Source of the DNA: Dryococelus australis
Lineage: Eukaryota; Arthropoda; Insecta; Phasmatodea; Phasmatidae
Assembly (NCBI GenBank): GCA_029891345.1
Contig: CM056994.1
Location: 60,977,251 to 61,041,250, forward strand
DNA length: 64,000 nucleotides
Reading direction: 5' to 3'
Shown: positions 1 to 35,585 of the stretch, piece by piece
Layout: each line of letters opens with the position of its first letter
How positions within the stretch are numbered: position 1 is the first letter of the stretch
Notes under the pieces: generated by a model
Database searches by the model: none
Seen by the model: only the letters and a program-made list of their open reading frames with translations
What the model was told of the DNA's origin: nothing
Made by a program: the position numbers and the translations under genes

Positions 1-56
1 AGAGGAAAAAAGTAACTAGGGCCTCAGAAGTGTTCACTTTGCCATGAACAGCCTAC
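1..56 (+). mobile_element. MITE type C, right end only (cut by window edge)
   Basis: This is the right terminal inverted repeat and adjoining interior of the element seen whole at 17,387-17,629. It ends in the GAACAGCCTA motif shared by all MITEs of this group. Confidence 0.8.
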
Positions 57-285
57 AGACATTGACAAGCTTTTCCACCACGTGATTGTTATATGAAAGA
101 TCGTGATGTTTTCTTGAAACACATTAGTCATAGGGTAGCCGCCGCACGTGTTATTCGATACGTGTTAAATTAAATGTTAAGTTGTTGTAATACTAGCCTA
201 AGCTTGCGGTAAATGAAGGAATTCTATATATCTGTGTGTAAATGTTCGTGTTTGGCTCGAACTCGCATCAGACAAAATATCGGGT

Positions 286-524
286 ATACACTATTCACAG
301 TAAAGTGAGCATTTTTTGAAGCCTTCTCATTTGGAATAATAGTCAATAAATATGTTTTACTGTAGCCTTAGACGTAAACTTTTGCGTGCTGTGAAATGTA
401 TACACTGTGTTTATTACTTACATGGGAATATTTATTTTAAGAAGTGGGGGAAGGATAAAAATGGCTGATAAGGAAAAAGTAACTAAGGCCTCAAAAGTGC
501 TCACTTTGCCGTGTACAGCCTATA
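286..524 (+). mobile_element. MITE type C, complete, about 240 bp
   Basis: The left end reads CTATTCACAGTAAAGTGAGC and the right end is its near reverse complement (GCTCACTTTGCCGTGTACAG). The interior is AT-rich and non-coding. The small open frame inside it has no recognisable protein. Copy 2 has lost the left terminus through a deletion of about 60 bp, which leaves a truncated element at 17,840-18,036. Confidence 0.8.
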
Positions 525-3244
525 TTAACTTATTTTGTAATTATTATTCACGACCTCCAATTGTTTTTTCAAGAGCAAACAATGAAAATACAACTGTGTT
601 TGGAAATTAGAGTTTATAAGCAAGCTCATTTCAATGGGAAAAAGTCACGAATTTAAGTACGAAACAAATATAGCTACCGTAAAAAGGAATTTGGTAATTT
701 TCTCGTTTATCATACGGAAACCAAGCAGGAAAGTACTAAAAATAATATTTTTAACAATTTCTCTATTTTTTTCGATTTAATTGTCATATTTAAATAAAGT
801 AATTGTGCAGGTCAACGTTTTACGTATATTCTTAAACAATACAAATCAGACAAAATTACACAGTTATATTTATTTTATGAAAATTGAATTTACCCATTTA
901 CTTACACAAAAGTAAAATCAGGTACACACGCAACACCAGTGCATCTTGGCGGCGAAAATATTCAGTCGCCAAACTAAAAACACTGAACTTCCCAACCTAA
1001 GTAGAATAAGAGTGGGATGGAGCTGCGCGTCCAAGGTCAAGAAGCGAGGGAGTGATACGAGCGACAATAATACGTACGCCTAGTGCCTCATCGCACCTAT
1101 GCGCAAGGCGTGCAGTGTTTCCGACGTGCCGCTGTACTGTGCAATGAAGATCTGCAACACCAGGGTTTTATTACATGCTATGAAAGTCCACAGATTAAAC
1201 TACCCCTGTATCTTGGTAGTTTTCTCTTGCTGATTAAGTAAACTGCATAGGCAAGCTTTAAATATAGGATATTTGACCATTTTCACGAATTTATTTCTCT
1301 AAGAATACACTCAATGTGACAAAAGTAAAAATAAAATAGGGCATAGATAATTTTTTTAAAATCTTTTCTGACAAAAAGTCGTATTTGCAGAACATTTATT
1401 TACCGAGATACGCGTATTCGCGCAAACAACTATTTCACAAAAAATGCGAGGGTCCAGCCCGCTCGGCGTAGCGGAGCTGACGATATTCTAACACGCAGGT
1501 GGTTACAAAACTTCGCGCTATTGCAACTTCCACCCGTATTTTTCCCCCACGGAGTAATTCTGCTCTCAATAAGAGGCAAAGTGAATAATAATCGTGCTAC
1601 AGGCTGCTTTTGTCTATGTTGCCCCGCCACCTCCCCCCTTTTTTTCTCTGCACCCGGTACAATCGTCAAAGACATATCGGCACTGGCTGAACAGATTTTC
1701 ATTAAGTACGGTATCCACAGAAAGAAAAAATATGTAGGTTCAGAGTATAAACTTCTGAAATACGTAATAGTAGCCTATTTTCCCTGTACGAGTTAATTGA
1801 AAAAGCTCTTAACATACCACGTAATGTAAAGTGCGAGCATATAAAATATTTTATTGTGTGTTGTTTTTGGAAATTTAAACTATTTGTGATTTCTTAATAC
1901 TCAGCACATTTTAATATTATCTGATGAAATTTCTTCTCTCTCACTCCTCTTCCCCCACCCCCCCACCCAAAACCCGGCCAATCAACTGAACTTTCGTAGA
2001 GTTTCCGAAGTGAAGATTTCAGTTTGACATTGGCACAAACAATCAAAAATGGTACTGTATGCTGTGAATTTTTATTGCAAATGCGATAATTTTCTTTCTA
2101 CTTGTCAGTTTTAAGTATTGCGTGAAACATATATTCATGAAGGAGTGTGAAGAATGACTTAGAGATGGAATGTTAAGCCAAGCAGTGGTACCAATTCCGA
2201 CATTCTGAACTTTCGTATGAACTCAGAAAGCTGCAAGGGAGGCAGATTACTTACATATAAGTTAAATTTCAGCATTGTCTCAAAGTCAACAAGTAAATTT
2301 CCGAAAAAATGAAGGAGTATAAGAAATTCCGCATGGAACGGCGAATTCAGAAATCACAAATAATCAAAACATCCTTCATCCTTCCGTTAACTACAAGACT
2401 TATATTTTATGGAATTCATTCCTGCAAACTTAACATTTTCTTTAAGTGAGACAATTTTTTTTCGGTAGAAACGATTATACGCTTAGAACAATTACAGTTT
2501 TCTAACAATGCTACCCTGAACTTACATTATTTTAGTCTCAGATCGTCTACAGTAACGACAGATAGAGAGAAAATCTGTCTCAAGGCGATTAAAATAATTC
2601 ATATAACCTAAATCCATGGTGTAAATACAGTTTCCCACCAAACAACAAATGTCACTGGTCTCTGATTTTCTACTACGTCTTGACTTGTACTAAGATATAA
2701 AATATAACGATACCATAAGTCAAGTCAAGAACTCATACGACCCGTCACGACCCGCACACTGTAGTCATAAACCAATACCTTTGAACACATTGATTCATAT
2801 TCTTAGCACGCTACGGCACATTGAGTCTGTTAAGACAATCGTAAACCCAGTCTAAGAGCGTGGGAGCTGTAGGGACGACCGAGACATGCGCATCAACTCT
2901 CTCATCGCCTCTACGCGCAAAGCAATGAAGTGGCGTGAAGTCTTGCCGTCGATAAAGCGCCTGTATGAGACTCTCAGAGGAAACCGTACCATTTTACGAC
3001 GTAATAATAAAAATAAAGGGTTGATGCTCGTCCCTATTTCTTTTTTAATGTTTTGCACAGGAATGTTCATACTTAAAAATTACCGCAAAAACACCTGTTT
3101 GAGCAATTTTCAGTGTCACAAAAAAATGCTTTAGAAGTAAATGGAGAAACTGAAAAACATTTACACACGCGTAACGTTTCTTAAATGCTATTCATGAGCA
3201 GACCTCGCTCAACACACGTCATAGATGATTCATGGTATCTTCGG
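525..3244. other. AT-rich stretch without recognised gene
   Basis: There is no conserved protein or RNA motif here. A region around 1,430-1,800 is open on both strands (90-91 residues each way). It is retained in copy 2 at about 19,030-19,340 but resembles nothing I know. Two short GC-richer segments, near 1,010-1,150 and 2,850-2,990, share a CTCATCGC-CCTACGCGCAA pattern, so they may be remnants of one repeat. A pyrimidine-rich run lies at 1,930-1,980. Confidence 0.5.
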
Positions 3245-3650
3245 CCTTTTCTGAAGCCCTGCTAAAGTTATACTTCAAGGATATTCCTCCACCTCGTGCA
3301 AAACAAGCGTAACTAAGTTTGGAAGATTACACCGGAGGGACAACGCGCCGGATTCGTGCGCACTATGTTGTAACAGTATTTTGTATAAGAACTATTTCTT
3401 ACTTGGTGCTACCAACACACATGTTTTCTCACTGTTTATATTCAAAGTATTTACAAATGAAACATTACAATTTATAGATAAAATATTAATAACATTTCAA
3501 TAACAGAAAAATAAAAGTAACTTTTATGAACACAATTATAAAACGCTTGTGATATATAGCAAATGTTGGAAACAACCAAGCACGTCATACATGGGGTGTT
3601 TTTTCAAAGGTTTGATTCAAAAAGGGCGAAGAAAACGTGAATAGACTATA
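3245..3650 (+). mobile_element. MITE-related repeat, type B
   Basis: It starts CTTTTCTGAAGCCCTGC, which parallels the first interior bases of type A (TTTTGAAAGCCCTGC), then diverges into its own roughly 400-bp interior. Related copies lie at 21,556-21,960, 37,381-37,770 and 58,697-59,010, with a fragment at 56,726-56,792. It has no coding capacity. It is probably non-autonomous and related to type A by module exchange. Confidence 0.65.
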
Positions 3651-4739
3651 GACGGGTTTGTAATAAAACGTTTTCTGGTGAAGCTCTGCACACCGTTCGG
3701 CGGCCTACTCTGCGGCCATCTTATTCGCGTTGGCCGCCAACTACTTCTGTAGTGGGTCACGAACTACCGGAGACCTGACGATTGCACCTGATGACTTCGT
3801 ACGCGAGCGCACTCTGCAAGCAGCTGCACGTTCAACTCGATTTTCTTGTTTGATGCAGACGCAGACACAGCCGTCGGCTGGAGTATTTCCCTCGGGCACT
3901 CACGTTTTTTTTCCTAACTACCATATAACTAAGTGTTAAGTGATAGCCCGGAGGGTAGAGCGGGATTTAATGCGTCTCAGGACTAGACCCTTTACGCCTA
4001 CAAGGATAGGAAATCATGCAAGGAGACATGCATCACAGCAATGAGGGATTGGCCTGCGATTGGGACATGACTACCTCCCTAAGTGTACTTATAGCTAAGC
4101 TATCACTAGAAGAGACTGGGAAAAACCGGCATAGACACCGGAAAAAACCCAGTCGCACTGAAGTTCCTTCGTGCTTGTGCCCTGCCGCTTCCACGCCGTC
4201 ACCTCGTTCCAGGCCGTGTCTCAATTGACTCTCTCGCTCGCTCTCTCTCTCTTTCTCTCTCTCTCTCACACACTCTCTCGGAGGACTTCACGGAGAGCGC
4301 TCTCTGGTCGTCTCAATTAGTCGGAGAGAGCGCCAAAGATTGAGAGCACAGAGAGATAGCGCGAAATCGTATACTCGCTGGCGCTCTCTCGCAGGCGTTA
4401 TATGTGTTTACGTTATTTTCGTGTATTACATAATTTTTGTAGTTTTCTGGGCCAAAACCACGCTGCATTTTAACTGTAAGTGTATGATTTCAACTGTTTT
4501 AAACAGCAAAATAGCCTACGCAACAAGTATTTATAAAAATATAAAAACGGATTTCTGACTAAATCTCTTTTTTTTTTTGTCACTTTGCTGCAACATTACG
4601 GTAAAATATAAAATAAAAATTATTATACTTTATACACTAACGATGTTTTCTGGTAGTGCTATAATTATTTGTGAATTATATTGAACACACATAAATTACT
4701 TACAATAGCCATGATCGCGATTTTAGCTTAACATGATTC
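3651..4739. other. GC-richer stretch with CT/GA inverted segment
   Basis: Sequence from 3,660 to 4,215 is richer in G+C than its surroundings but has no recognisable protein. At 4,218-4,400, CT-rich and GA-rich blocks face each other, and GTGTCTCAATTGACTCTCTC is imperfectly repeated in inverse orientation near 4,325-4,350. A further GGCGCTCTCTCG lies at 4,379-4,391. The segment could be a small foldback element. Copy 2 keeps it at about 22,530-22,690 with a shorter CT tract. The rest, to 4,739, is plain AT-rich DNA. Confidence 0.45.
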
Positions 4740-5087
4740 CCCGTCTTATGGTATCAGTGCGCACAGCCAGTCTCCGTGTCCCAATATTGAACAGATTGTC
4801 TGCCAATAACGTCTAGCGAAAACTACATTATTTGATTTTAGGTTAGAAAACTTATTTGTAAACAATTGCTTAGAGATGTTGTTATACGTCCGCTAACCAA
4901 TTCGTAATGCAGTTTGACTAAATTAATATAATGGTGCTTGTCATTTAAAAATTAAGATATAAACAAACACGTTCATCACTGTTTACCACGTGTCTTTGAC
5001 AGCTGTGTATGTTCCTTTGGGGTAGGTCAATGTTGGGTACACGGGCAGAAGACGAATAAGCGATCTACTTCATCTTTAGTCTATGCC
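4740..5087 (+). mobile_element. Inverted-terminal repeat element, type F
   Basis: The central 200 bp matches the reverse complement of 59,805-60,020, for example TTTGTAAACAA...GCTT..GAGATGT and GTGCTTGTCATTTAAAAATTAAGATAT. The right end, CATCTTTAGTCTATG, recurs at the corresponding end of the second copy, and the two ends of the element are imperfect inverted repeats (CTCCGTGTCCCAA at the left, TTGGGTACACGGG at the right). It is non-coding, so a non-autonomous DNA element is likely. Confidence 0.6.
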
Positions 5088-5154
5088 AGCTCCACCCTCA
5101 CTGGAACTAAGGTTTATTCCCCTCACGTTGGGAAGCTCAATGTATTTAGTCAGG

Positions 5155-5612
5155 TATAGGCTGTTTACTGTAAAATGAGCACTTTTGAAAGCTCTGCTTA
5201 AGATCTACTTGTGTGCACGTTGTGTATTTTTCCACCTCATGTAAAATTTGCGTTGCCATGGACCTCATCACATTATTCATGCATCGGTCAAGAGACACTG
5301 TAAAATTATTAGAAAAGGAACATTTCACAAATATGCTCATTTTAAACTTCGATGCATTATAAAAAAACAGAAAAAGAAAGAAATAATCTAAGTAATTTTA
5401 AATGGTTACCAAAACTATAATAGTCAATATATATAGTTTATTTTAACCTAAGACGTTCTCTAATGAGTGCGGTGGAATATTCGCACTATGTTTATTACTT
5501 GCCAGGCAATACAGTATTTATTTGAAAATGTGGTTAAATGATAAAAAAAACTGCTAGGAGGGAAAAGTAACTAGGACTCCAAAAGGGTTCAGTTTACCGT
5601 GAACAACCTATA
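5155..5612 (+). mobile_element. Chimeric MITE: left half type A, right half type C
   Basis: The sequence begins TATAGGCTGTTTACTGTAAA and ends ACCGTGAACAACCTATA. Up to about 5,415 it follows type A (AGATCTACTTGTGTGCAC, then CATGCATCGGTCAAG, then AAATGGTTACC). From ATAATAGTCAAT at about 5,417 it follows type C to its right terminus. A template switch or recombination between related MITEs is the simplest explanation. Copy 2 has the same chimera at 23,444-23,900. Confidence 0.8.
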
Positions 5613-6091
5613 ATTGCAATTTTCATAAGTTAAATGAAGTTGTGTAACATCTTCTGAGCTGTGTGTGTTATACTCCGCGTAAAGAATAAACCTTGTTCTT
5701 CGCACTGGAGTTGACGTATAACGATATATGTTCATGCACATGTTAAATTTTCTGTCATAAATTGGATTCAGCAAAATCTGCACTTACACAATTACTAAAT
5801 GATTTAAATAACGCAAGTGAATCGAATAATAGTATTGTGAAATGGTTAAAAATATAATTTTTAGGTCTTTCCTGTGCAGTTTCAGTAAGCCAAAGAAGAA
5901 AAATACTAAGTCCCTTTTAAAGTCAGCTTTGCTTTTAAACTCATAAGGTTGAATTGTGCTTGCTTATGAATGCCCAATGCTAATCACAGTTGTATGTTTA
6001 CAGTTTCCTTTTCTAAACACCAATAGGAGGCTGTGGATAATAGTTACGGAATGAAGTTAATGCTTCAAATTTTGGCTGCGGCGAAAATAGG
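5613..6091. other. AT-rich spacer, no gene seen
   Basis: The small open frames lack any recognised motif. The segment is almost identical in copy 2 (23,901-24,379). Confidence 0.5.
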
Positions 6092-6512
6092 TAAAAGCTG
6101 TTCACGATAATGTGAGCACTTTTGAAATCAACTTTAGAAAAAAGTCACCACCTCTGCCTGCATATGTTTTAATGGGCGCACTGAGGGACATGCGCCAGTA
6201 AAGTTGGTAATGATGGATGTAAAGTACTTCCATATCTTAACGTCGAATATAAAGTGTTAGGTATCCATTTAAAATAGCTTAAATTATTGCTTCGCTTTCT
6301 TTTCTTTATGCATCGAAGTGTAAAATTAACCAGTTTTGTAACATATTTTATTTCTAAAACTTTAACAGTGTCAACTGACCGACACATGAATGAAGTGATG
6401 AGGCCCATGGTAATGCTAATTTTACATGAGGCGTAAGAATACACAACGTAGATACAAGTAGATATTAAAGAGGGGCTTCAAAAGTGCTAATTTAACCGTG
6501 AACAGCCTATAT
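6092..6512 (-). mobile_element. MITE type A, complete, reverse orientation
   Basis: The left end is GCTGTTCACGATAATGTGAGC and the right end is the inverse, AACCGTGAACAGC. The interior is asymmetric and matches other A copies read backwards (GTCACC..CTGCCTGCATAT, then CGACACATGAATGAAGTGATGAGGCCCATGG near the far end). There is no open reading frame. Confidence 0.85.
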
Positions 6513-6984
6513 ATTACAATTAGAACCAAACACGAACTTTTACACAAAAATATATTTAATTTATCCAGTCACTGCCAGCTTAAAAGCGACCTCTTTGGAA
6601 CCCCAACGCACATAGCGACGGAAAATTTCCCTTAATGGAATCTCTCCCATGAGTAATCTCGTTTTGTTTCCAACCTGAGTGGAATAAACCTTGCCAGCAC
6701 TCAAGACCTAGCCTTTAATAGATGTTGATTCCTTCCATCTTGTATTTATCAGTTTTCTCGCTATGCCTTTTGGTTCGTAGATTGGATGCGTCAAAAATTC
6801 TGGTGCGACAGAACATACGTAAATTACAGCTTTTGAAAATTTATTAATTTGTTGTAGCTCCACCACCTTCATTACTTTCTAATATGTGACAGCTGAAAAG
6901 AAAAGAAAAATATTTTATGCGAGTGACTGCCAAGGCGATAACACCAAGAGACACCATGACATTATTTCAGGAAGTTTCCTAAGC

Positions 6985-7150
6985 TATAGGCTGTTCATGG
7001 TAAAGTGAGCACATTTGAGGCCCTTTTTACTTTTTTCCCATCAGCCAATTTATATCCTTCCACCCCTTTTCAAAATAAATTTTGTCATGTAAGTAATAAG
7101 CAGAGTGCATGTATTTCACCAGACTTTAATGTTATCATCTGATGCCACAG

Positions 7151-7207
<57 letters not shown>

Positions 7208-7265
7208 CTGTTATTCCAAATGAGAGAACTTACAAAAATGCTCACTTTACCGTGAATAGCCTATA
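6985..7265 (-). mobile_element. MITE type C, reverse, with internal (TA)n expansion
   Basis: The termini TATAGGCTGTTCATGG and CCGTGAATAGCCTATA are near-perfect inverses. The interior matches the reverse complement of the 17,387-17,629 element. An AT-rich spot inside it has expanded to about 52 bp of TA repeats (7,153-7,204). The equivalent site in copy 2 is only a few repeats long. Confidence 0.85.
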
Positions 7266-7331
7266 CAGACCTACACTATTCCCTGTCAGTTCGCAAAACA
7301 ACAAACTGCCAGGTTTTGGATTGAAGGGGAA

Positions 7332-7545
7332 TGATTTGGGCGGGTCTTAACAGCGAGGTCTTGAGAGCCGAAGTAGGCGAAGAGAAGAAAGGTGAATATG
7401 GAGCACCGGAAATGGGAGAACCTTGAGAAAACCTGCCGACCAGTGGCATCGTCCGGCACGATTCCCACATGCGAAAAAGCCAGGGAACCGGTTTGCGTCG
7501 GTGGGATGGCGTGCGGCGGGAGGTGGGAGGCGGGTGTCTAATTCA
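7332..7545 (-). mobile_element. tRNA-headed SINE (GGCCGC type), degenerate
   Basis: Read on the minus strand it contains the body shared with the copy at 11,530-11,957 (CGTGCCGGACGATGCC, GGTTTTCTC, GGCTCTCAAGACCTCGCTGTTAAGA). The tRNA-like head is only partly retained at the right side. It is paralogous to 25,588-25,800 in copy 2. Open frames across it are SINE-derived, not genes. Confidence 0.75.
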
Positions 7546-8039
7546 CATTTTAAAGTCGTTGCATTTGCATTCAGGTCTGTGGCTTAGACCTAAAAGTAAC
7601 ATTATATTCGAAATGTTTGAGTGCGAGGCGTTTCAACCCCATCCGCTTCGTTCTTTTACACAAGTATTACACTTGGAGATGTGTAACTGTTCTTTGTAAT
7701 CAATACTTCCGAGGACATTATTAAATATTTAATTCAATCTATTTACTGAAAAGCTTCATACATATATACATACATATATAAATATATATATATATATGCC
7801 AACATTACCTGAAATACACACATTAATAGACCATGTTCAATAATTATATCTAGTTGCATAGAATTATATCTATGTTCTTATCTCATCACTTACATATTAA
7901 ATGACAGATGATAAGTAGGGTTTGCGAAGTTAAACCAAATCAGATTCTTTCAGAAGAGCGAGCAAGCATTGCTGGTGTTATGCTATGAAACACTTTTGGA
8001 GGGGGTGGTCTAACGGATGAAATAATGGGGCTCGAGGAA
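7546..8039. other. AT-rich spacer with short TA/CATA runs
   Basis: It holds short (TA)n at about 7,760-7,797 and no recognisable coding or RNA sequence. It lies just 3' of the Transib remnant. Confidence 0.5.
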
Positions 8040-9621
8040 GTTCATAACATATTTAGAAAGTCCCTGTTAATCCTCGCTCGCGACGTTTTCCGGCACCTGT
8101 TTTCTCGAAACCGTCGAAAATCTTTATTTCGGGCTTTTTGAGGTTCTTCTTTAAGCATCCCTATAGGCAAAAGTGCGACAGAAATTCCATCAGCTCCATT
8201 AATAAGGATTTTGTGTTGTGATGTTGGCATGGGATACCAGCTGTACTCATTCACATACAGATGCGCTGTGTCCAAGGCATATGCCAAGAAAGCGTCAATA
8301 TCGACTGCAAAATCACTCGACAGAACGCGCAGTATAGTGCAGATTTTGTAATAAGTTCTTCGTTGACAACGGTGATTTCTGCGGACTGCTGGGCGTATGC
8401 AAAAAACAGCGAGCAGTATTTCCGTCGTGTATTGTTCCCTTTCCTCGATGAACAACGCCAATCAAAATTCATATTTCACTTTTGAACAAGTCTTGGATTT
8501 TCGACTGTCTTGCTTCAATTTGTGCTTTCAGCTCTTTCGTTATATATCGCGATTTAAATCGCAGTCCATACGACATACAGGAACCATTATAAAAAGCGTG
8601 CATATGCATGCAACGTTGATAGGCCATATTGACTAACACTTTCATCAATTGACCTCTTCACAACCAAATCTATATTGTTAAGATTTTTAGGGGTCGCACC
8701 GTACACATTGCTACACTCAGCTGAGGTTGTTTCCATCAATGCATTACAAGCCTTCCCGTCAATCATCATCATCGCTAACTAGTGATGCACCTTCAAGTGA
8801 GATGTAGCTGCGTTTTCCAGAACCATGTGTCGAAATTCTGCGATTTGTACATGCATACATTTCTTTTCTGCTATAATTTTAGCGGTAGTTTCAGCCGCTA
8901 ACTATAGCTTTATTGACCTACAATAACGAGTAGCTGATGGCCGCGGAATTTGCCACACGATTAATTTTTTCCCAATATCTGGAATTAATCCTTACATTTG
9001 CAGAGGCACTAAGCATGTCATTAACACTCATATCAAAAGATCACTTCCTAGTTACTTCTTTGTTTGTAAGTTGCATGTCCACTTCTACCGTCACAACCCC
9101 ATTTTGAAAGTAAAATTAGGTTTTCACGTTCGTCAAAAGGAAGAGTCAGTAAAACATTTTCTTGCAGTTCGATTATTCGTTTCACTATCAGATCTAAGAG
9201 AGCCTGCAATATGATTTCCACTTTCGATTCGGTGATAGTCACACTTTCTTCTGACGGATAACACTCTTCGTTTTGCGTTACGAACTTTAGTGTATGATGG
9301 GTATCGTTTTGCTCCTCTAGACTTTGCCTCCATTCGTAATGTTTAATAAATCTCTCTAGAAAAGTCAGCCTCTAGCATAACTGATAGTGCTTCACATGGA
9401 GTGTACGGTGTTGAGGTATTTAAATGATGCTGTCTGTAAGGCTCATTGATTTTGCCCGCGCGAGTTGGTGTTGTAAAAACTGCTTCACTTATAACTTTGG
9501 ACTCTTCGAGTTTTCCAGCTGATCGAAGGCTCATTTGCGCTGCACAAACTAGGACCTCCGGAGGTGCACGCTCTTGTAATTCTTGCACTTTCCGCCTTTT
9601 AATCCTTTCCGATGAAGAGGC

Positions 9622-9715
<94 letters not shown>

Positions 9716-10235
9716 CTCCTCTCTCTCTCTCAGGTCTACCAATTACTGCAAATCATAAAATTAATAGAGTGTCAGAAATAAATAGAAATAATATGACAGT
9801 CTTGTAATCATTAAGATGGTATTTGGTTACTTGCCAGTGTCATTCGTTCTTGCGGTTTATTTGTCTGGAATCGCAAATGTAACAGGTGTGTCAAGCCAGG
9901 TGAGGTATTTCTTGCAAAACTTTGCTTCGATCATGCACGAGTCATCCCACCTTTTCTTGACAGCAGCGTATTTTTTTGCGTCAATCTAATTTTACAGCCA
10001 TCCAATCATTTCTCCGACATATCTTGACGGAAGGCACGTTTAATGACACCGTCGATATGTTCGAAACGATATTTCCACGGTTTGAATTTTTCTACTTCAT
10101 CAACCGATACAACGGTCGATGTGCTATTGTAAATGACATCTTCGTAATCCGCATACCAAACCACAAAAACAGAACGCCTTTACTGCTACTACACACAGCG
10201 ACTAATCACGACTTGGGTGAATTCTCATTTTGAAC
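8040..10235 (-). pseudogene. Transib (RAG1-like) transposase remnant, copy 1
   Basis: In an intact element this enzyme cuts at the terminal repeats and pastes the transposon elsewhere. It belongs to the superfamily that gave rise to vertebrate RAG1. Read leftwards from about 9,590, frames carry YTPCEAL, then CYPSEE with TITESKVE, then LQALLDL, KWGCDGRSGH (first catalytic Asp, codon 9,087-9,095 region), MMMIDGKACNAL (second Asp, 8,758-8,760), YGLSTLHAYARF, then YSWYPMP, HKILINGAD, PIGMLKEE and RNKDFRRFRE. The last block parallels the RAG1 segment that holds its catalytic Glu; here that position is Lys (AAA, 8,135-8,137). At least five frameshifts or stops break the gene. Coding-like minus-strand sequence continues upstream of a (CT)n tract to about 10,235 and may be the N-terminal part. 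Family assignment is from remembered motifs. Confidence 0.75.
9626..9731. repeat. (CT)n microsatellite
   Basis: About 105 bp of almost pure CT lies inside the upstream part of the Transib remnant. The copy 2 tract (27,935-28,015) is shorter and interrupted. Serine-leucine open frames across it are artefacts of the repeat. Confidence 0.95.
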
Positions 10236-11529
10236 TGTTGCTGAGGGAGCACTGGAAAGTCTGTGATAAACAACCTGCCGATGCAGGTACCCACAGATAA
10301 CTCTACCTTCGTTGCCTTTTCAGCAGATTGCAGCGCGCGCGTCCGATCTAAACGTAGTCAGTCGTGCGCAGTTCCCTGCTAGATCCACTCTATTTCGCAA
10401 GGTAGCAAGAAGTGGCATGTAATTTTTTGACACACGTAGCCAAAGAAGTACGCTTTACGTTAAAAAAAGGGAAGAACGCGGGATATAGCGAGGAATTTTT
10501 ATAGGCCTCGTCCAACTTTTCCAAATGCTTATAAAAAGCACATGTTTTGAAATACATCCAATGATATCAAAACGTATATTACGATAAAGTTTTGGACATT
10601 AACGTGTGACGAATAACGAACGAGGATTAAGTACGTCTGGTTGTAATCGTAAACTGAGTCTTATTCATCAAGTGACGGCCCGTCGTACTCAGCGACACTT
10701 TACGGGTTCGTACAGTGAGTCAGAGCAAGTGTCTATTTTAGGTTCGAATTTCGAACAATATATACACCTTTACAAGTGCATCAAGGTGATTTTGTTCACA
10801 CTGGACATTTGTCTTCGCCGTTAGAGGTCTAACATCTTTCTAAAACAAAAATTACTTTTGTGACTTTTGGCCACGTTTTGGGGTTTTGGGTCCACTGTGA
10901 GCCGCGGACCCAACCTGGTTTTCGTTTTGGGGAGGGGGGGGACTATAAATCCAAGCCGGCAGGAATCAATCCGCCTTGAGCGCTGGCGAAACCCTCTCAA
11001 TTCTCTCATTTCATTTACATTTGACCCATTATGAAGGACTCTGGGTGGACAAACGAACCCACACAAATAATACATCACGTATCAATACAAACAATAATAT
11101 TCAGTATATTGATGTCGAACTACCCACACACAGACATCAAAAATACAGATATACGCAAGAACAAATAAACTGAAGAAACAGCACTTACACTATACAACAC
11201 ATACATAAACAACATTACACTGTCACCAACACAACAACGACACAAGACACAATACATCATACACAAGACAGACACCTCACAAAACGACAAACGACGGCCC
11301 CTCTGTCTCCGGAGAGGATGATGGGGCGAGGGTTTTTCAGGGTGGAGGCAGAGGAATTTTAACTTTTGATCTTTTTAAATTATAACTTAACTTTTTCTTC
11401 TAGATTTTAACAAAATAATTTTAGGTCTCTGTTTTAAAATTTATCTTGTTTTTTTAATGTTATAACGCGACAAATTTTATGTTTCAACCATTTTATAAAT
11501 TAATTCTTAATTCAAGCAACTGAGACTAG
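10236..11529. other. Spacer with G-run and a G-depleted A/C-rich block
   Basis: No gene is recognised. A G-rich spot at 10,930-10,940 is longer in copy 2 (a run of 13 G, about 29,209-29,221). From about 11,070 to 11,285 the plus strand is made almost entirely of A, C and T with hardly any G (ACAACACAACAACGACACAA-like). An A+T-rich tail follows to the SINE at 11,530. Confidence 0.5.
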
Positions 11530-13150: not shown

Positions 13151-13159
13151 GGGTTGGCA

Positions 13160-13160
13160 A

Positions 13161-13195
<35 letters not shown>

Positions 13196-14112: not shown

Positions 14113-14123
14113 AAGAGAGAGAC

Positions 14124-23376: not shown

Positions 23377-23443
23377 AGCTCCACCCTCACTGGAACTAAG
23401 GTTTATTCCCCTCACGTTGGGAAGCTCAATGTATTTAGTCAGG

Positions 23444-24379: not shown

Positions 24380-24806
24380 TAAAGGCTGTTCACGATAATG
24401 TGAGCACTTTTGAAATCAACTTTAGAAAAAAGTCACCACCTCTGCCTGCATATGTTTTAATGGGCGCACTGAGGGACATGCGCCAGTAAAGTTGGTAATG
24501 ATGGATGTAAAGTACTTCCATATCTTAACGTCGAATATAAAGTGTTAGGTAACCATTTAAAATAGCTTAAATTATTGCTTCGCTTTCTTTTCTTTATGCA
24601 TCGAAGTGTAAATTTAACCAGTTTAGTAACATATTTTCATTTTCTAAAACTTTAACAGTGTCAACTAACCGACCGACACATGAATCAAGTGATGAGGCCC
24701 ATGGCAATGCTAATTTTACATATGGCGTAAGAATACACAACGTAGATACAAGTAGATATTAAAGAGGGGCTTCAAAAGTGCTAATTTAACCGTGAACAGC
24801 CTATAT
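24380..24806 (-). mobile_element. MITE type A, reverse, copy 2 paralogue
   Basis: It matches 6,092-6,512, with a 4-bp insertion (an extra ACCG) near 24,668. Confidence 0.85.
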
Positions 24807-25280
24807 ATTACAATTAGAACCAAACACGAACTTATACACAAAAATATATTTAATTTATCCAGTCACTGCCAGCTTAAAAAGCGACCTCTTTGGAACCCCA
24901 ACGCACATAGCGACGGAAAATTTCCCCTTAATGGAATCTCTCCCATGAGTAATCTTGTTTTGTTTTCAACCTGAGTGGAATAAACCTTGCCAGCACTCAA
25001 GACCTAGCCTTTAATAGATGTTGATTCCTTCCATCTTGTATTTATCAGTTTTCTCGCTATGCCTTTTGGTTCGTAGGTTGGATGCGTAAAAAATTCTGGC
25101 GCGACAGAGCATACGTAAATTACAGCTTTTGAAAATGTATTAATTTGTTGTAGCTCCACCGCCTTCATTACTTTCTAATATGTGACAGCTGAAAAGAAAA
25201 GAAAAATATTTTATGCGAGTGACTGCCAAGGCGATAACACCAAGAGACACCATGACATGATTTCAGGAAGTTTGCTAAGC

Positions 25281-25519
25281 TATAGGCTGTTCATGGTAAA
25301 GTGAGCACATTTGAGGCCCTTTTTACTTTTTTCCCATCAGCAATTTATATCCTTCCACCCTTTTCAAAATAAATTTTGTCATGTAAGTAATAAGCAGAGT
25401 GCATGTATTTCACCAGACTTGAATGTTAACATCTGATGCCACAGTAAAAAATATATATTGACTGTTATTCCAAGTGAGAGCACTTACAAAAATGCTCACT
25501 TTACCGTGAATAGCCTATA
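25281..25519 (-). mobile_element. MITE type C, reverse, without TA expansion
   Basis: The interior reads GTAAAAAATATATATTGACTG where copy 1 has about 52 bp of TA. This is the normal length for the family. Confidence 0.85.
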
Positions 25520-25587
25520 CAGACCTACACTATTCCCTGTCAGTTCGCAGAACAACAAACTCTCTACTGCCATGGTTTTGGATTGAA

Positions 25588-25800
25588 GGGGAATGATTTG
25601 GGCGGGTCTTAACATCGAGGTCTTGAGAGCTGAAGTAGGCGAAGAGAGGAAGGTGAATATGGTGCAACGGAAACGGGAGAACCCTGAGAAAACCTGCCGA
25701 CCAGTGGAATCGTCCTGCATGAATCCCACATGCGAAAAATCCAGGGAACCGGAACCGGTTTGCGTCGGTAGGAGGCGGAGGTCTGACCATTTCCCCGCCG
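25588..25800 (-). mobile_element. tRNA-headed SINE (GGCCGC type), degenerate, copy 2 paralogue
   Basis: It has the same body motifs as 7,332-7,545, but the sequence at its right border differs (GGTAGGAGGCGGAGGTCTG). Confidence 0.7.
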
Positions 25801-26339
25801 CACAGTGAGGCCAAATCCCCAAAACTTGGCCATAAGTCTATTTCACATTTTAAAGTCGTTGCCTTTGCATTCAGGTCTGTGGCTTAAACCTAAAAGAAAC
25901 ATTATATTCGATATGTTCGAGTGCGAGGCATTTCAACCCCATCCGCTTCGTTCTTTTACACAAGTGTTACACTTGGAGATGTGTAACTGTTCTTTGTAAT
26001 CAATACTTCCGAGGACATTATTAAATATTTAATTCCATCTATTTACTGAAAAGCTTCATACATATATATATATATAATATATATATATATAATGCCAACA
26101 TTACGTGAAATACACATATTAATAGTCCATGTTCAATAATTATATCTAGTTGCATAGAATTATATCTATTATGTTCTTATCGCATCACTTACATATTAAA
26201 TGATGGATGATAAGTAGTGGTTGCGAGGTTAAACTACATCAGATTCTTTCAGAAGAGCGAGCAAGCATTGCTGGTGTTATGCTATGAAACACTTTTGGAG
26301 GGGGTGGTCTAACGGATGAAATAATGGGGCTCGAGGAAG

Positions 26340-27930
26340 TTCATAACATATTTAGAAAGTCCCTGTTACTCCTCGCTCGCGACGTTTTCCGGCACCTGTT
26401 TTCCCGAAACCGTCGATAATCCTTATTTCGGGCTTTTTGAGGTTCTTCTTTAAGCATCCCTACAGGCAAAAGTGCGACTGAAATTCCATCAGCTCCATTA
26501 ATAAGGATTTTGTGTTGTAATGTTGGCATGGGATACCAGCTGTACTCATTCCAATACAGATGCGCTGTGTCCAAGGTATATGCACAGAAAGCGTCAATAT
26601 CGACTGCAAAATCACTCGACAGAACGCGCAGTATAGTTGCAGATTTTGTAATAAGTTCTTCGTTGACAACGGTGATTTCTGCGGACTGATGGGCGTATGC
26701 AAAAACGGCGAGCAGTATTTCCGTCGTGTATTGTTCCCTTTCCTCGATGAACAACGCCAATCAAAATTCATATTTCACTTTTGAACAGTCTTGGATTTTC
26801 GACTGTCTTGCTTCAATTTGTGCTTTCAGCTCTTTCGTTATATATCGCGATTTAAATCGCAGTCCATACGACATACGAAGGAACCATTATAAAAAGCGTG
26901 CATATGAATGCAACGTTGATAGGCCATATTGACTGACACTTTCATCAATTGACCTCTTCACAACCAAGTCTATATTGTTAAGATTTTTAGGGGTCGCACC
27001 GTACACATTGCTACACTCAGCTGAGGTTGTTTCCGTCAATGCTTACAAGCCTTCCCGTCAATCATTCATCATCGCTAACTAATGATGCACCTTCAAGTGA
27101 GATGTAGCTGCGTTTTCAGAACCATGGGTCGAAGATCTACGATATGTACATCCATACTTTTCTTTCTGCTATAATTTTAGCGGTAGTTTCAGCCGCTAAC
27201 TATAGCTTTATTGACCTGCAATAACGAGTAGATGATAGCCGCGGAATTTGCCACACGATTAATTTTTTCCCAATATCTGGAATTAATCCGTACATTTGCA
27301 GAGGCACTAAGCATGTCATTAACACTCTTATATCAAAACATCACTTCCTAGTTACTTCTTTGTTTGTAAGTTGCATGTCCACTTCTACCGTCACATCCCC
27401 ATTTTGAAAGTCAAATTAGGTTTTCACGTTCGTCAAAAGGAAGAGTCAGTAAAACATTTTTTGCAGTTCGATTATTCGTTTCACTGTCAGATCTAAGAGA
27501 GCCTGCAATTTGATTTCCACTTTCGATTCGGTGATAGTCACACTTTCTTCTGACGGATAACACTCTTCGTTTTGCGTTACGAACTTTAGTGTATGATGGG
27601 TATCGTTTTGCTCCTCTAGACGTTGCCTCCATTCGTAATGTTTAATAAATCTCTCTAGAAAAGTCAGCCTCTAGCATAACTGGCAGTGCTTCACATGGAG
27701 TGTACGGTGTTGCGGTATTTAAATGATGCTGTCTGTAAGACTCATTGATTTTGCCCGCGCGAGTTGGTGTTGTAAAAACTGCTTCACTTACCACTTTGGA
27801 CTCTTCGAGTTTTCCAGCTGATCGAAGAATCATTTGCGCTGCATAAACTAGGACCTCCGGAGGTGCACGCTCTTGTAATTCTTGCACTTTCCGCCTTTTA
27901 ATCCTTTCCGGTGAGGAACGAACTCACCAC

Positions 27931-27990
<60 letters not shown>

Positions 27991-28515
27991 CTCTCTCCCC
28001 CTCTCACTCTCTCTGGTCTACCAATTACTGCAAATCATAAAATTAATAGAGTGTCAGAAATAAATAGAAATAATATGACAGTCTTGTAATCATTAAGATG
28101 GTATTTGGTTACTTGCCAGTGTCATTCGTTCTTGCGGTTTGTTTGTCTGGAATCGCAAATGTAACAGGTGTGTCAAGCCAGGTGAGGTATTTCTTGCAAA
28201 ACTTTGCTTCGATTCTGCACGAGTCATCCCACCTTTTCTTGACAGCAGCGTATTTTTTTGCGGCAATCTAATTTTACAGCCATCCAATCATTTCTCCGAC
28301 ATATCTTGACGGAAGGCACGTTTAATGACACCGTCGATATGTTCGAAACGATATTTCCACGGTTTGAATTTTTTCTACTTCATCAACCGATACAACGGTC
28401 GATGTGCTATTGTAAATGACATCTTCGTAATCCGCATACCAAACCACAAAAACAGAACGCCTTTACTGCTACTACACACAGCGACTAATCACGACTTGGG
28501 TGAATTCTCATTTTG
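26340..28515 (-). pseudogene. Transib (RAG1-like) transposase remnant, copy 2
   Basis: It is the paralogue of 8,040-10,235 with the same order of motifs. The first catalytic Asp codon lies in GCDG at about 27,387-27,395. The second lies near 27,057-27,059, and the frame around it is broken by small indels. In the C-terminal block (26,341-26,760, 139 residues open) the frame between the TTEILLAVFAYA and VLSSDF segments is continuous, unlike copy 1, and so shows the better ancestral reading. The catalytic-Glu position is again Lys (EEPQKARNK), so this loss predates the duplication or is shared by both haplotypes. Confidence 0.75.
27935..28015. repeat. (CT)n microsatellite
   Basis: It is the interrupted CT tract equivalent to 9,626-9,731, about 25 bp shorter and with CCC interruptions. 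Confidence 0.93.
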
Positions 28516-29805
28516 AACTGTTGCTGAGGGAGCACTGGAAAGTCTGTGATAACAACCTGCCGATGCAGGTACCCACAGATAACTCTACTTCGTTGCCTTT
28601 TCAGCAGATTGCAGCGCGCGCGTCCGATCTAAACGTAGTCAGTCGTGCGCAGTTCCCTGCTAGATCCACTCTATTTCGCAAGGTAGCAAGAAGTGACATG
28701 AAATTTTTGGACAGAACGTAGCCAAAGAAGTACGCTTTACGTTAAAAGAAAGGGAAGAACGCGGGATATAGCGAGGAATTTTTATAGGCCTCGTCCAACT
28801 TTTCCAAATGCTTATAAAATGCACATGTTTTGAAATACATCCAATGATATCAAAACGTATATTACGATAAAGTTTTGGACATTAACGTGTGACGAATAAC
28901 GAACGAGGATTAAGTACGTCTGGTTGTAATCGTAAACTGAGTCTTATTCATAAAGTGACGGCCCGTCGTACTCAGCGATACTTTACGGGTTCGTACAGTG
29001 AGTCAGAGCAATTGTCTACTTTAGGTTCGAATTTCGAACAATATATACACCTTTACGAGTGCATCAAGGTGATTTTGTTCACACTGGACATTTGTCTTCG
29101 CCGTTAGAGGTCTAACATCTTTCTAAAACAAAAATTACTTTAGTGACTTTTGGCCACGTTTTGGGGATTTGGCTCCACTGTGAGCCGAGGCCCCTACCTA
29201 GTTTACGTGGGGGGGGGGGGGGACTATAAATCCAAGACGGCAGTAATCAATCCGCCTTGAGCGCTGGCGAAACCCTCTCAATTCTCTCATTTCATTCTCA
29301 TTTGACCCATTATGAAGGACTCTGGGTGGACAAACGAACCTCACAAAATAATACATCACGTATCAATACAAACAATAATATTCAGTAAATTGATGTCGAA
29401 CTACCCACACAGACATCAAAAATACAGATATACGCAAGAACAAATAAACTGAAGAAACAGCACTTACACTATACAACACATACATAAACAACATTACACT
29501 GTCACCAACACAACAACGACACAAGACACAATACATCATACACAAGACAGACACCTCACAAAACGACAAACGACGGCACTCTGTCTCCGGAGAGGATGGT
29601 GGGGCGAGGGTTTAAGGGTGGAGGCTGAGGAATTTTAACTTTTGATCTTTTTAAATTATAACGCAACTTTTTCTTCTAGATTATAACAAAATAATTTTAA
29701 GTCTCTGTTTTAAAATTTATCTTGTTTTTTTAATGTTATAACGCGACAAGTTTTATGTTTCAACCATTTTATAAATTAATTCTTAATTCAAGCAACTGAG
29801 ACTAG

Positions 29806-30234
29806 TTATGGCCTTCGGCTGGGTGCTGGTGCAATAATAATATGTTCTGTTCTGTTCTGTTGTGGGCGGATAATAAGATAAGTTTCTACACCAGACTGAC
29901 GCAGGCAAACACTCACAGGCTTCAGGTGACAGCAAGTGGCAGTCAGACAACTGCTGACGTCAGCGGGGGTGGAGTGTACTGTAGTGGAGAGATTTGGGCA
30001 GCTCTTAGCAGCGAGGTCACGAGAGCCGATAAGGGTGAAGTGAGGTGAGTATGTAGCAGCGCCAAAATGCAAGGACGGGGGAAGCAGGATATCCCCGCGA
30101 AAACCCTCCGACAAGCGGCATCGTCCGGCACGATTCCCACGAGCGAAAAGTCCGGGAGTGACCCCGCCGGGAATTGAGCCCTGTTCGCCTAGGTGGGAGG
30201 CGAGCAGTCTGAACACTACAACACCGCGGCCCCC
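29806..30234 (-). mobile_element. tRNA-headed SINE (GGCCGC type), near full length, copy 2 paralogue
   Basis: It matches 11,530-11,957 and keeps the CCGGCGGGGTCACTCCCGG region. The T-arm-like loop has a substitution (GGGCTCAATTCCCGG). Confidence 0.88.
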
Positions 30235-31433
30235 TCACGTTAACAGGGAAGGAGTTGTAAAGTCTAACAACTTCGAACAGAATACAAAACTCGCAGCTCA
30301 AAAATATAAAAGTTTAAGACAACAATAAGAAAGGCTGAAATTCTTCTGCAATATTCACAATTGGTTGTTAAAAACGAACGAAAAGAAAGGGTATTAATAC
30401 AAAATATAAAGTGAAAGCTACGGTAAAGGCATTTACTAAAAAGTGTTTCATTGATAATAAAGTAAACCTGAGGCGGCTCATGGAATGTTTTATCGGAGGG
30501 TGCTATGATACAGTGAAGGCTGCAGGAATAATGCAGATATTACTGACAAATAAGTGGAGGTACAGGAATTTCTTTCCCGGAATTTTTTCTTATTTGTCAC
30601 CTAGTATTTGGCTTCTGTTTAAACTTGCCAACAAAACTGAAACATTTGTTTTGTGATTCCGGGAAGTGTGAAGAGACAAGACATTTCTGTATCGAAGTGC
30701 TGATGTTGAGAACAGCAGTGAAAAATTACCAACTTGAAGGGAAATAAAAGGGGGGTGGGGGGATGTTAAATGTGAATAAAAAAATATGAAGAAAAGCGCA
30801 TAGTAGACCTATTAATAAAATAAATCCAATAAAAAATGTTTACTGTGCTGTAAAGATAAGAAAGATAATAGTTATATCGTAACCTCTACAGACAGAACTA
30901 CAGTGTTTTGGGCATCACAACGTGTCGGTAGACAGAAAACAAGCTTCATCGTCAATTCCCCCTTCCCGCCCCCCTTACCTAAATCTTTGCAAAAAATAAA
31001 AGACGCCCACTTGTACAACCAAAGACATGGCCACCTCTTGTTTAATCTTCCTGAAAGAGTGGAATTGCCCAGGAATGAAGTCGGAAAACCTGGTTTTATC
31101 AAGATCAAACTCACGGCCTCTCTGCGAAGGTCACGCACGTTAACTTCAGAAAAAAAATAGACTATTTGACTGTGAATTCTATTCTGTATTGAAGAACACT
31201 GAACTGTGCACTAAATGTTTGCTTTGAATGGTGCAGTTTTACACTACACAAAAAAAAAAAAAACGGACTTCATTTTATACTACATTGTCTCACATCAAAA
31301 TTAAAAATTTCAAACATGCCCAGCTTCTCCGCCCCATTCCCAACACGACTCAAATTAAGTTCCATCACATCTAAAAGTGGTTGGAGTGGTTTGGAGAAAG
31401 GAATGAAAATGTTGTGATGCCATGTGGTGGGGG

Positions 31434-31435
31434 GT

Positions 31436-31520
<85 letters not shown>
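31434..31520. repeat. (GA)n microsatellite, expanded
   Basis: It is about 85 bp of GA against about 38 bp in copy 1. Confidence 0.93.
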
Positions 31521-31523
<3 letters not shown>

Positions 31524-31654
31524 AAACACTTGCTCAAGGACAGCTTTCCAAACGAACGATTAGGTAATTCAATTTTAAAGTGCTATCATGACTTTTTTAG
31601 CCACGGAGAAAATCATTTTAATATTAAGATGTATTAATGTGCGTTAAGAGATAA

Positions 31655-31734
31655 GTCCTAGTAGCTCAAATGGAAAGAGAGTTGCATGACACAAAAATTT
31701 CGCAGAGGTTCCAGGTTCGAGCCCTGGCTAGGAC
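31655..31734 (+). repeat. tRNA-like sequence, copy 2 paralogue
   Basis: The acceptor stem, D stem and T arm are all conserved relative to 13,347-13,426. The changes fall in the D-arm 3' side (GAGA) and the odd anticodon region. Confidence 0.6.
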
Positions 31735-32416
31735 GTTATTTTTTATTTCGTGTTAAATTAAAGTATTTTTGTTGAAAAATATGTTCTTTTAAAGGTTCTT
31801 TTTTCGTATCAATTTTTCCAAGAACATTTATTAGCTTAAATGAAACATTTACACTTTCTATCTTCCACTTCCAATTGCGCGCCTTACAAAAAAGTTATCT
31901 GATATATTTATTATTTGCTTCTGATATGTCTAATGTTTTGATTCGAGTCCAAATCAGGTATGCTAATTTCGCTTTTCCATAGTTTTCTAATATTAATCCA
32001 GGCGAATTTCGGAAAGTATCTTTCTACAGTAGAGAGGGAGTTTGTGAATATTTCGTGGAAGCAACAAAAACAGTTTTTGAGGATGATTTATTTTTCAGTA
32101 CAGTATAGTATAGCACCAATGACGAAAAGGAAAACAATATAACTGAGGAAAAATTAAGATAACAACAAACACTTGCAAAATGCTTGTCCATTGTGTCAAA
32201 ATATTACTCCAACATCAATTCACGATCCAACCCCAAAAAAAAAAAAAAAAGAAGTAAATATTTTAATATAGATAAAATGAAAATACTCTTACGTTGTGCA
32301 ATGTTCCTACAAAGAAAACACTTACTCGAGGACAGTTTTCCAAACAAAAGATCAGGTAAATACAATTTTAAAATGCTATTATGACTTTCTTAAGCCAAGG
32401 AGGAGGAGGAGGAGGA

Positions 32417-32435
32417 AGACATAGAGAGAGAGAAT

Positions 32436-32478
<43 letters not shown>
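32417..32478. repeat. (GA)n microsatellite
   Basis: It is the copy 2 equivalent of 14,113-14,157, preceded by a (GGA)n run. Confidence 0.9.
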
Positions 32479-32479
<1 letters not shown>

Positions 32480-32529
32480 AAGTTTATTCAGCGGAAGCTT
32501 ACTATCAAAGAATTGCCTTTTTCTGTCGA

Positions 32530-32613
32530 GTCCTAGTTGCTCAATTAAAATTCAAGAGCGTTGCCCGATATTGAAAATCCTCAGAGATTTCAGGTTCGAG
32601 CCCTGGCTAGGAC
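32530..32613 (+). repeat. tRNA-like sequence, second unit, copy 2 paralogue
   Basis: It starts GTCCTAG and ends CTAGGAC with perfect end pairing, better than the copy 1 unit. The T stem has one mismatch (TCAGG/CCTGG). Confidence 0.6.
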
Positions 32614-33673
32614 TTTAATTTTTACTTCGTGTTAATTGAAAGAATATCTTCGTATACGTTCTTTTAAACTATGAAGGGAACCATTCATAAGTATGGCATA
32701 GGAATCTACTTCAAAAGGTGGAGAGACGTGAAACATTCGAACATAGCTACTTCACGCGATAGAATAACATTGTATGGTAACTGTAATGACCACAGCAAGA
32801 GCATTCTAGAGTAAAAGGGAGGCGATGCGGTAGTCCACCTTGATACCCACTTGGGGTGGAAAAGGGGCAGGTTTTCCAAAGGGAGGACCATACGAATACT
32901 GTGGCAATGAATTTATTTCATTTATGAAACGTAGAATCAAATAAACAGATTTCTATAGTATTGTTTTTGATAAGAACACTGGATATAGAGAACATAGTTT
33001 TTTTACCATAAGTTGTCTTTGACTACACTGCTGTGGGAATCGTTTAGGCATGGCACCTTTCCAGAAATACTTACAATAATCAGGCCTCTTTGTGTGCATT
33101 ATACGAGTGATCTTATACGAATTAACACAATATAAACCTGCTTTTTTTCCTACCTTTTATAAATGAGAGAATTCCATTACCACGGCTTTCGCTTGGTCCA
33201 CCATTTGGATCGGAGTTTCAAGCTCGACTTTCGCCCTTTTATTCTGGAACTCCCTTGTTTTCAGTTACCATCCAAAGTTTTTACATTATGTACAGTATCT
33301 ATATTTGTATATTTCACTCATCCCCACCCCCCTTTTTGTGATACATTGCTATGCCATACTTATGTGAGCGATGCTCCGTATAGATGTCTCTCAGTGGTGC
33401 TCTGTATGAAGATTGCTTTGAATAATCCGAAACGATATATACGTAAGTAAATAATTTTATGTCGCTCTAGTATTCAGAGAATCGGAAAATATAGAAAAAA
33501 GAATATAGGCCCCTATAATATAAAATTTGTGTAAGTTGCGTAACTAGAAGATACAGAAAGGATACAATTATATTTCTATAGTACGAATGTTCTTAAAACA
33601 ACGGACACGAAAGAACATTTACAAGACCTTAGATAGCAAAATTACATTAACACAAAGGAAAAAAAACTACCTT

Positions 33674-33740
33674 CTAGTCGGGATTCGAACCTGGAACATT
33701 TGCTAGAAAACTCACACAACGCTATTTCTATTAATTTTTA
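33674..33740 (-). repeat. Truncated tRNA-like sequence, copy 2 paralogue
   Basis: It is the same minus-strand T-arm-like segment as 15,376-15,445. Confidence 0.5.
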
Positions 33741-34231
33741 GCCGTTTGACAAAGCATAGTTGACATTTGACGAGTTGTGGTTGACGTTTTACAGTCAGTG
33801 TTGGACGTATGCCTCACGCAGGAGAACACAGTCGGACGTACACAAGCATACGCCCATGTCTTTCCAGTGACTCGAGCCCGGATCTACCCGTGCCGTAAGC
33901 CGATGCGCGGCCAGCTATGCCACGGAGGTCAGCTCCATTTGAGATACGTTTTATTTTGTTTACAACATGCATTTTGACTGTATGATGCAGGAAATACAAT
34001 AGTGGACAGAGGCTCAAGGGCGCATGTACTTACTCTGGTTACATACTGTTACAAATGAATTATTTGTTCAGTGTTGTTTCTTTCACCACCAGCCACCTCG
34101 TCCTACGCAGTCTGTCAACAAATTTTCGTACACAAGTGGAAGGGAGTCGGTATTTATAGTAAAGTCAATCAAGTTCATGAGTAGCCTGACCACCGCTCTC
34201 CGTTTGATGGTATGGAACGCTGTCAAATCAA

Positions 34232-34663
34232 GGTAAAGGCTGTTCACGATAAACTGAGCACTTTTGAAAGCCCTGCTTAAGATCTATTTGTATGCGCATC
34301 GTGTATTCTTCCACCACATGTAAAATCAGTATTGCCATGAGCCTGATCTTTTTATTCATGCGTCGGCCAAGTAAAACTTTACAATTATTAAGAAAGTAAA
34401 TATTTTAGTATCCACTAATTTCTACACATATTATGCATTAAAAAATCTGAAAGCAAAATAAATCGTTTCGGTATTTATAAATATTTAACCTAACATTTTT
34501 CATTCAGCGTTAAGACGTGGAACTGCTTTCCTCTCCGTCGTTACCAACTTCTACTGATCGTGTGCTGGTCAGTGTACCCGTTAAAACATTATGCGGGTAG
34601 TGGCAGTGACATTTTTCAAAGGTTAATTTCGAAAGTGCTCATTTTATCGTGAACAGCGTTTAG
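34232..34663 (+). mobile_element. MITE type A, copy 2 paralogue
   Basis: The left end GGCTGTTCACGATAAACTGAG is closer to the family consensus than its partner at 15,913. Confidence 0.88.
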
Positions 34664-35009
34664 TAATGTGTCTCCTCACGTAGGTCTTTAGCTGCCACGT
34701 CACGTACAACGTGATGTAGACAGCAGTTCCATAAGGGACGGGAAAAAATACAGTACAACTAGTAACCCGATGAAGTGCTGTATCACGTTAGTCACATATG
34801 ACGCATCTATCAGAGCGGAGGAAAATACGTTTACGTCGAAACTCAGTGGGTGCTACGTCATTGATAAAGGAATATGCAGACGCTCGGAGGGCCGTACCAT
34901 ATTTTTCCAGTGGAAATTGCTCATTTGAGTTGCACCCTCGGAACTACAGGATAGGGCACATGTCTTGTAACCCCCTGAAATTGTCTTGCCATCCTTACAT
35001 ATCCGGAAA

Positions 35010-35436
35010 TAAAGGCTGTTCATGATAAAGTGAGCACTTTTGAGATGAACCCTAGAAAAATGTCACTTCCCCCTGCCAGCATATATTTTAACGGGTGCAC
35101 CAAGTGACATTCGCCCAGCAAAGTTGGTAACAATGGATGGAAAGTAGTTCCATATCTTAACCTCGAATAAAAGGTGTTCGGTAACTATAAGTGATAGTTT
35201 AAATTATTTCTTTCGCTTTCTATTTTTTTTAAATACATCGAAATGTAGAAAATAGCAGATTTATAAAATATTTACTTTCCTAATAATTTCACAGTTTCAT
35301 TTGACCGACGCATCAATAAAGTGATGAGGCCCATGGCGATGTTAATTTTACATAAACCAGAAGAATACACAACGTGTATACAAGTAGATCTTAAGCAGGG
35401 CTTTCAAAAGTGCTCGTTTTACTGTGAACTGCCTAC
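35010..35436 (-). mobile_element. MITE type A, reverse, at right end of the duplication
   Basis: It is the paralogue of 16,689-17,114. The right terminus reads CGTTTTACTGTGAACTGCC. Sequence beyond it is unrelated to anything left of it. Confidence 0.88.
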
Positions 35437-35585
35437 AGCACGTGCGCTTCAGGTAAATTACACATTTATCGGAGAAAAACAGTTTACCAAGCTTTGGGAG
35501 TGTCGATAACACTTGAAGCAATCTTGGGCATGCCGAATGTCGTTTGTCCATGTCAGTATCGCTTATCTTTTTGACATCTGTTGGC

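Follow-up and report, generated by a model that had tools for sequence, protein, structure and literature searches.

The window is a stretch of 64,000 nucleotides from Dryococelus australis (C2:60977251-61041250) that sits on a 376 Mb contig of a 3.4 Gb genome in 646 contigs. Together with 100 kb on each side, it was analysed as one contiguous region of 264 kb. All coordinates are window positions, with negative values lying to the left of the window (Table 1). Self-alignment of the window reveals a tandem direct duplication, copy 1 having a unit of ~17.6 kb and copy 2 one of ~18.3 kb. The unit boundaries are formed by three terminal-inverted-repeat (MITE-like) elements of ~425 bp, named L, M and R, which share the same orientation. 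The locus thus consists of two copies and three elements, and the middle element, M, is a hybrid of the outer two.

Table 1. Coordinates of the duplicated units, their bounding elements and the tracts discussed in the text (paired coordinates are copy 1/copy 2).
Feature	Coordinates	Strand	Details
Copy 1	-861..17113	+	1..17113 within the window; start = G000:C2:60976389; self-alignment
Copy 2	16704..35435	+	Self-alignment; overlaps copy 1 within M
Left outer element L	-861..-448	+	Element match
Middle element M, at seam	16690..17114	+	Match to 17125; R/L hybrid; 39 nt inverted arms
Right outer element R	35011..35435	+	Match to 35441
Same-family element inside copy 1	6094..6511	+	Counterpart in copy 2: 24381-24805
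Same-family element inside copy 1	15913..16334	-	Counterpart in copy 2: 34234-34656
Switch tract in M	16942..16996	+	Same sequence in all three elements; 55 bases in M, 54 compared in L
Stretch present in copy 2 only	20097..20896	+	800 bases; corresponding site in copy 1: 2584/2585
Low-divergence tract, copy 1	4759..5759	+	2 differences/1000 columns, shuffle minimum 8; candidate gene-conversion tract
Low-divergence tract, copy 2 counterpart	23048..24047	+
Alignment piece	1-270/17573-17843		Self-alignment
Alignment piece	326-2584/17840-20096		Self-alignment
Alignment piece	2586-7164/20898-25458		Self-alignment
Alignment piece	7197-7491/25451-25752		91.7% identity; self-alignment
Alignment piece	7536-13195/25836-31473		Self-alignment
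Alignment piece	13161-17113/31483-35435		Self-alignment

An earlier note on this DNA had described a tandem direct block of 17.6-18.3 kb in which base 1 equals base 17573 and collinearity extends to about 17,114/35,436. Self-alignment agrees on each of these points, with collinearity holding up to 17113/35435, and the total extent proves slightly longer. Once the left flank is added, the match starts at -861/16704, 861 bases further left, and the edge of the window is not the true left edge of copy 1. The spacing between the copies rises from 17,565 to 18,322, mainly through a single 800-base difference that is partly offset by smaller ones, and the alignment of the copies contains 83 gaps in total. 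Five of the six alignment pieces are 94.6-97.4% identical, the exception being the piece at 7197-7491/25451-25752. The assembled sequence contains no N anywhere in the 264 kb and no gap between the copies.

The elements at the boundaries belong to an abundant family. Their terminal inverted arms are 39 nt long and 90% complementary, and as a single DNA strand the element folds better than its shuffled versions (z -6.1; 0 of 100 shuffles). TA adjoins the element ends in several copies. There are 37 whole or partial matches in the 264 kb, and a first look genome-wide gave 10100 candidates, with 88% identity for the best match to R outside the locus among the best 40 of these. Being short, bounded by terminal inverted repeats and present in high copy number, the element is MITE-like. 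A coding scan of a single frame in one copy (6172-6477, 102 aa) gave Ints3_N, whose 14.5 bits fall short of the cut-off of 25.

The block had also been called transposon-rich. Sequences that recur within the 264 kb make up 33% and 31% of the two copies, compared to 14-22% of the surroundings, which is an enrichment, if only a mild one. A Pfam scan was made of 20 ORFs or ORF parts from the 69 ORFs of at least 90 aa in the window. None of the 12 that lie inside the block reached the cut-off, and the matches there to Ependymin, Ints3_N and WD40_Gbeta were disregarded as sub-threshold. Outside the block, a MADF domain passes the cut-off at 62787-63107, and BMF stays below it. No RNA family reached its gathering score in the window. 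One tRNA-like candidate, at 13347-13427, shows a four-base anticodon and lacks an isotype. Since the ORF scan recognised no gene in the block, no effect of the duplication on the organism is suggested.

The hybrid nature of M emerges when the three elements are aligned and compared over ungapped columns up to 17118, with gapped columns set aside. M agrees with R and not with L at 48 sites, all at or before 16941, and with L and not with R at 11 sites, all at or after 16997; the last of these, 17117, falls just beyond the element, leaving 10 inside. There is only one switch, from R-like to L-like, with no mixing on either side, an arrangement with a probability of 3.6e-12 under a random order of the 59 sites. 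Five further sites that are private to M, and two at which all three elements differ, were set aside. To the left of the switch, M differs from R at 7 of 252 positions and from L at 54 of 230, while to the right it differs from R at 12 of 122 and from L at 1 of 122. L and R themselves differ at 51 of 231 positions left of the switch, which corresponds to 78% identity there, and are 84% identical overall. In the three-way alignment, M and R begin with 14 bases for which L offers no match; in a longer alignment, a few of these are paired.

The switch falls in a tract that is identical in all three elements. For comparison, 325 pairs were formed from the 26 near-full-length elements in the 264 kb, four of the pairs being products of the duplication. 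Once these four are left aside, the 54-base identical tract shared by L and R is the longest, followed by one of 39, and the median longest tract is 20 (310 pairs). The exchange point probably lies within 16942-16996; later conversion of part of R would allow a position more to the right, as far as ~17080. Over the 139 bases of 16942-17080, L and R show only 3 differences, an unusual likeness that may reflect conversion within R or M, during the event or later; the exchange point would then be less sharply defined than the 55 bases suggest.

The two ends of the duplication share one offset within a dispersed direct repeat. Counted roughly over the 264 kb, random pairs of points 5-30 kb apart lie no more than 60 bases from the diagonal of a direct repeat with a frequency of 5e-4 (100 direct alignments covering 27,850 bases). 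No inserted bases are found at the seam, and M is a full, in-register element. Beyond L and R, the sequence is unrelated, and alignments with the flanks of M go no further than the outer end of each element. Unequal exchange between the directly repeated L and R is expected to yield a hybrid such as M, whereas two haplotypes placed end to end would not be expected to do so. Since L lies outside the window, this mechanism is not visible from the window alone.

The reading that best fits these features, with a probability of about 0.84 as judged from the sequence, is a true tandem segmental duplication that would have arisen through homology-directed exchange between L and R and been followed by divergence and conversion. 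In the ancestral state, a single block of ~17.6 kb would have been flanked by two diverged copies of the abundant element in direct orientation. On one chromatid or homologue, the left copy would then have exchanged with the right copy of another, in the simplest case by unequal crossing-over (NAHR), to yield the order L-unit-M-unit-R with a hybrid M. Afterwards, the copies would have diverged by ~3%, microsatellite lengths would have shifted, copy 1 would probably have lost 800 bases, and at least one tract of ~1 kb would probably have been homogenised through gene conversion.

That the exchange was a crossover rather than another kind of homology-using repair is what we infer. However, 78% identity between L and R left of the switch makes them a poor substrate for classical crossover. 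Hybrid Alu junctions have been reported from much-diverged elements in PMC9675761, where the text gives an “average divergence ... 80%” that is taken here as identity. A variant that overlaps with exchange between L and R is that the same duplication came from template switching during replication, or from break-induced replication, at the short identical tract, which is possible but distinctly the less probable course. The identical tract has only 54-55 bases in elements that are diverged elsewhere, the 39 nt inverted arms could fold and stall a replication fork, and such routes are among those discussed for transposon-mediated rearrangements (PMC9675761). Against it, the seam carries no insertion and the hybrid is complete and in register. 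Crossover could give the same product, and the two routes are hardly separable by sequence.

The elements with inverted ends on both sides of the block might also suggest a composite transposon, in which block and elements were mobilised together and inserted beside the original. This is rejected because the element in the middle is a single hybrid, and not two elements or an element with a target duplication; it is scarcely credible. Nor did a third close copy come up, among the candidates scored, for the three stretches that were sampled, which also counts in favour of the tandem duplication. For 5000-6000, the genome holds two close copies, and no further match among the best 40 of 11164 candidates spans more than 458 of the 1001 bases. 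The stretch at 1500-2584 is covered by the two copies only, among the best 40 of 5003 candidates. For 8000-9600, with all 32 of 32 candidates scored, there are again two close copies and no third, the next full-length match being 89% identical. This last stretch is part of a dispersed repeat with 42 matches, several of them full-length, and the full-length ones outside the locus are 80-89% identical.

With the end elements left out, the copies differ at 526 of 17299 ungapped columns, or 3.04%. When microsatellites are masked, 489 of 16935 columns differ (2.89%; K2P 0.029), with 199 transitions and 290 transversions. At an insect-like mutation rate of about 3e-9 per site per generation, this K2P would place the duplication roughly 5 million generations in the past.

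The divergence is patchy, as the earlier note had observed, with a variance-to-mean ratio of 4.1 over 67 bins of 250 columns that 0 of 5000 shuffles reach. The near identity it had placed around 4,800-5,340 falls within the low-divergence tract in Table 1. The longest identical run is 601 columns, starting at 4759, and is likewise reached by 0 of 5000 shuffles. Since the shuffles assume one even rate, they demonstrate that divergence is uneven and not what caused it. The opposite extreme is 7344-7594, where 32 of 250 aligned columns differ, in part because unlike G-rich stretches are aligned together. Gene conversion is probably the source of the ~1 kb low-divergence tract, which is consistent with conversion later than the duplication.

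The 800 bases present only in copy 2 were first read as an insertion into that copy. This reading was dropped: no target duplication is seen, and a relative at C5:89399334-89400388, collinear with copy 2 over 20410-21531 at 71% identity, crosses the right edge of the extra stretch. For the same two reasons, the 800 bases are probably ancestral and were deleted from copy 1, with the direction taken from this one relative. Much of 20097-20896 belongs to an older repeat, and the relative covers this stretch only from 20410 on, after its first 313 bases. When 20097-20640 was searched genome-wide, the full stretch was found only at this locus among the best 40 of 3336 candidates; the other 39 matches cover only about positions 367-543, a common repeat.

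The same differences are open to another reading, which had been offered alongside duplication: two diverged haplotypes of a single-copy block, placed end to end by the assembler. A divergence of 3%, many changes in microsatellite length and an 800-base difference could all be allelic, and patchy divergence is normal between alleles. False heterotype duplications resemble the present locus in having adjacent, somewhat diverged copies on one scaffold, and false copies can also be joined without N through incorrect gap filling (PMC9516828). However, a misjoin gives no reason for both ends to fall at the same offset of a transposon, or for a hybrid of the outer elements to stand between the copies. 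A repeat so short and diverged should hardly mislead a long-read assembler. The seam of a misjoin is expected where one contig stops and another begins, and what is found here, in contrast to the cases described in PMC9516828, is a hybrid transposon and no gap. The seam thus lends no support to joined haplotypes, for which only a small probability is kept. Between the two, real duplication combined with gene conversion is to be preferred: the duplication is supported by the hybrid seam and the lack of a gap, and conversion probably accounts for the low-divergence tract.

A recurrent role for the family is a further idea: the abundant elements would repeatedly drive tandem duplications here and so shape the size of the genome, with exchange between diverged ~425 bp elements with foldable ends focused on short conserved tracts. 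This seems unlikely. On a more modest level, the locus illustrates cleanly how DNA-transposon-like elements that are small and diverged are able to duplicate the DNA beside them. A seam that contains a hybrid element also serves as a cheap, read-free test that helps separate real tandem duplications from haplotype artefacts.

The closest known parallel is the homologous class of transposable-element-mediated rearrangements (TEMR-HR), as described for human Alu and LINE-1 elements in PMC9675761. As in those cases, direct copies of one family lie at both ends, a single in-register hybrid occupies the junction, and an identical tract marks the switch between diverged parents. The element here is a DNA-transposon-like MITE in a 3.4 Gb genome rather than an Alu or LINE-1. 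The duplication is 17.6 kb long and ~3% diverged, whereas the median duplication there is 1,085 bp, and the identical tract is 55 bases compared to a median of 17.

Among insects, the ace-1 locus of Anopheles gambiae carries a 203 kb tandem duplication that includes 12 genes and is under insecticide selection (PMC5137868). This too is a strict tandem duplication, and the authors regard NAHR as probably its most parsimonious explanation. A Harbinger transposase locus lies at one end, and a transposon is reported at the 3' end only. Unlike ace-1, with its 12 genes and its selection, the present block has no recognised gene, and it has a hybrid element, of which the consulted portions of PMC5137868 make no mention. 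Exchange between two small transposons is thus known in kind from these systems (PMC9675761, PMC5137868), and the present case is an ordinary one with an unusually clean junction.

Between the two tandem direct units of the duplication (copy 1 and copy 2), the most divergent of the 250-column alignment bins holds 32 differences; dissimilar G-rich pieces lie inside it. ARAGORN makes a tRNA-like call in copy 1, with a four-base anticodon, and makes no call at the copy 2 counterpart.

A short way to the right of M, the hybrid MITE-like element at the seam between the copies, inspection by eye shows a second, shorter element, the inverted ends of which are similar. Its counterpart is a repeat with matches up to 12 deep across 264 kb (the window plus 100 kb of flank on each side). 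A tandem array of 15 copies starts at the extreme end of another member of the MITE-like family that bounds both units. A set of nested tandem arrays (units of 174, 192 and 236 bp, matches of 93-97%) contains long AT runs.

Features in and outside the duplicated block (negative coordinates lie left of the window)
Feature	Coordinates	Strand	Basis
Counterpart of shorter element	-186..58
Most divergent bin, copy 1	7344-7594
G-rich piece, copy 1	about 7500-7540
tRNA-like sequence, copy 1	13347-13427		ARAGORN
Shorter element	17389-17630
Most divergent bin, copy 2	25606-25894
G-rich piece, copy 2	about 25770-25840
Nested arrays	53138-54356
MITE-like element, same family as L/M/R	57412-57832	-	match to family element
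Array, 57 bp unit	57830-58682
MADF open frame	62787-63107		Pfam scan

Beyond the duplicated block, an open frame carries a MADF/Myb-SANT-like DNA-binding domain (PF10545, E 4.8e-16); Harbinger-type transposases are frequent neighbours of such domains.
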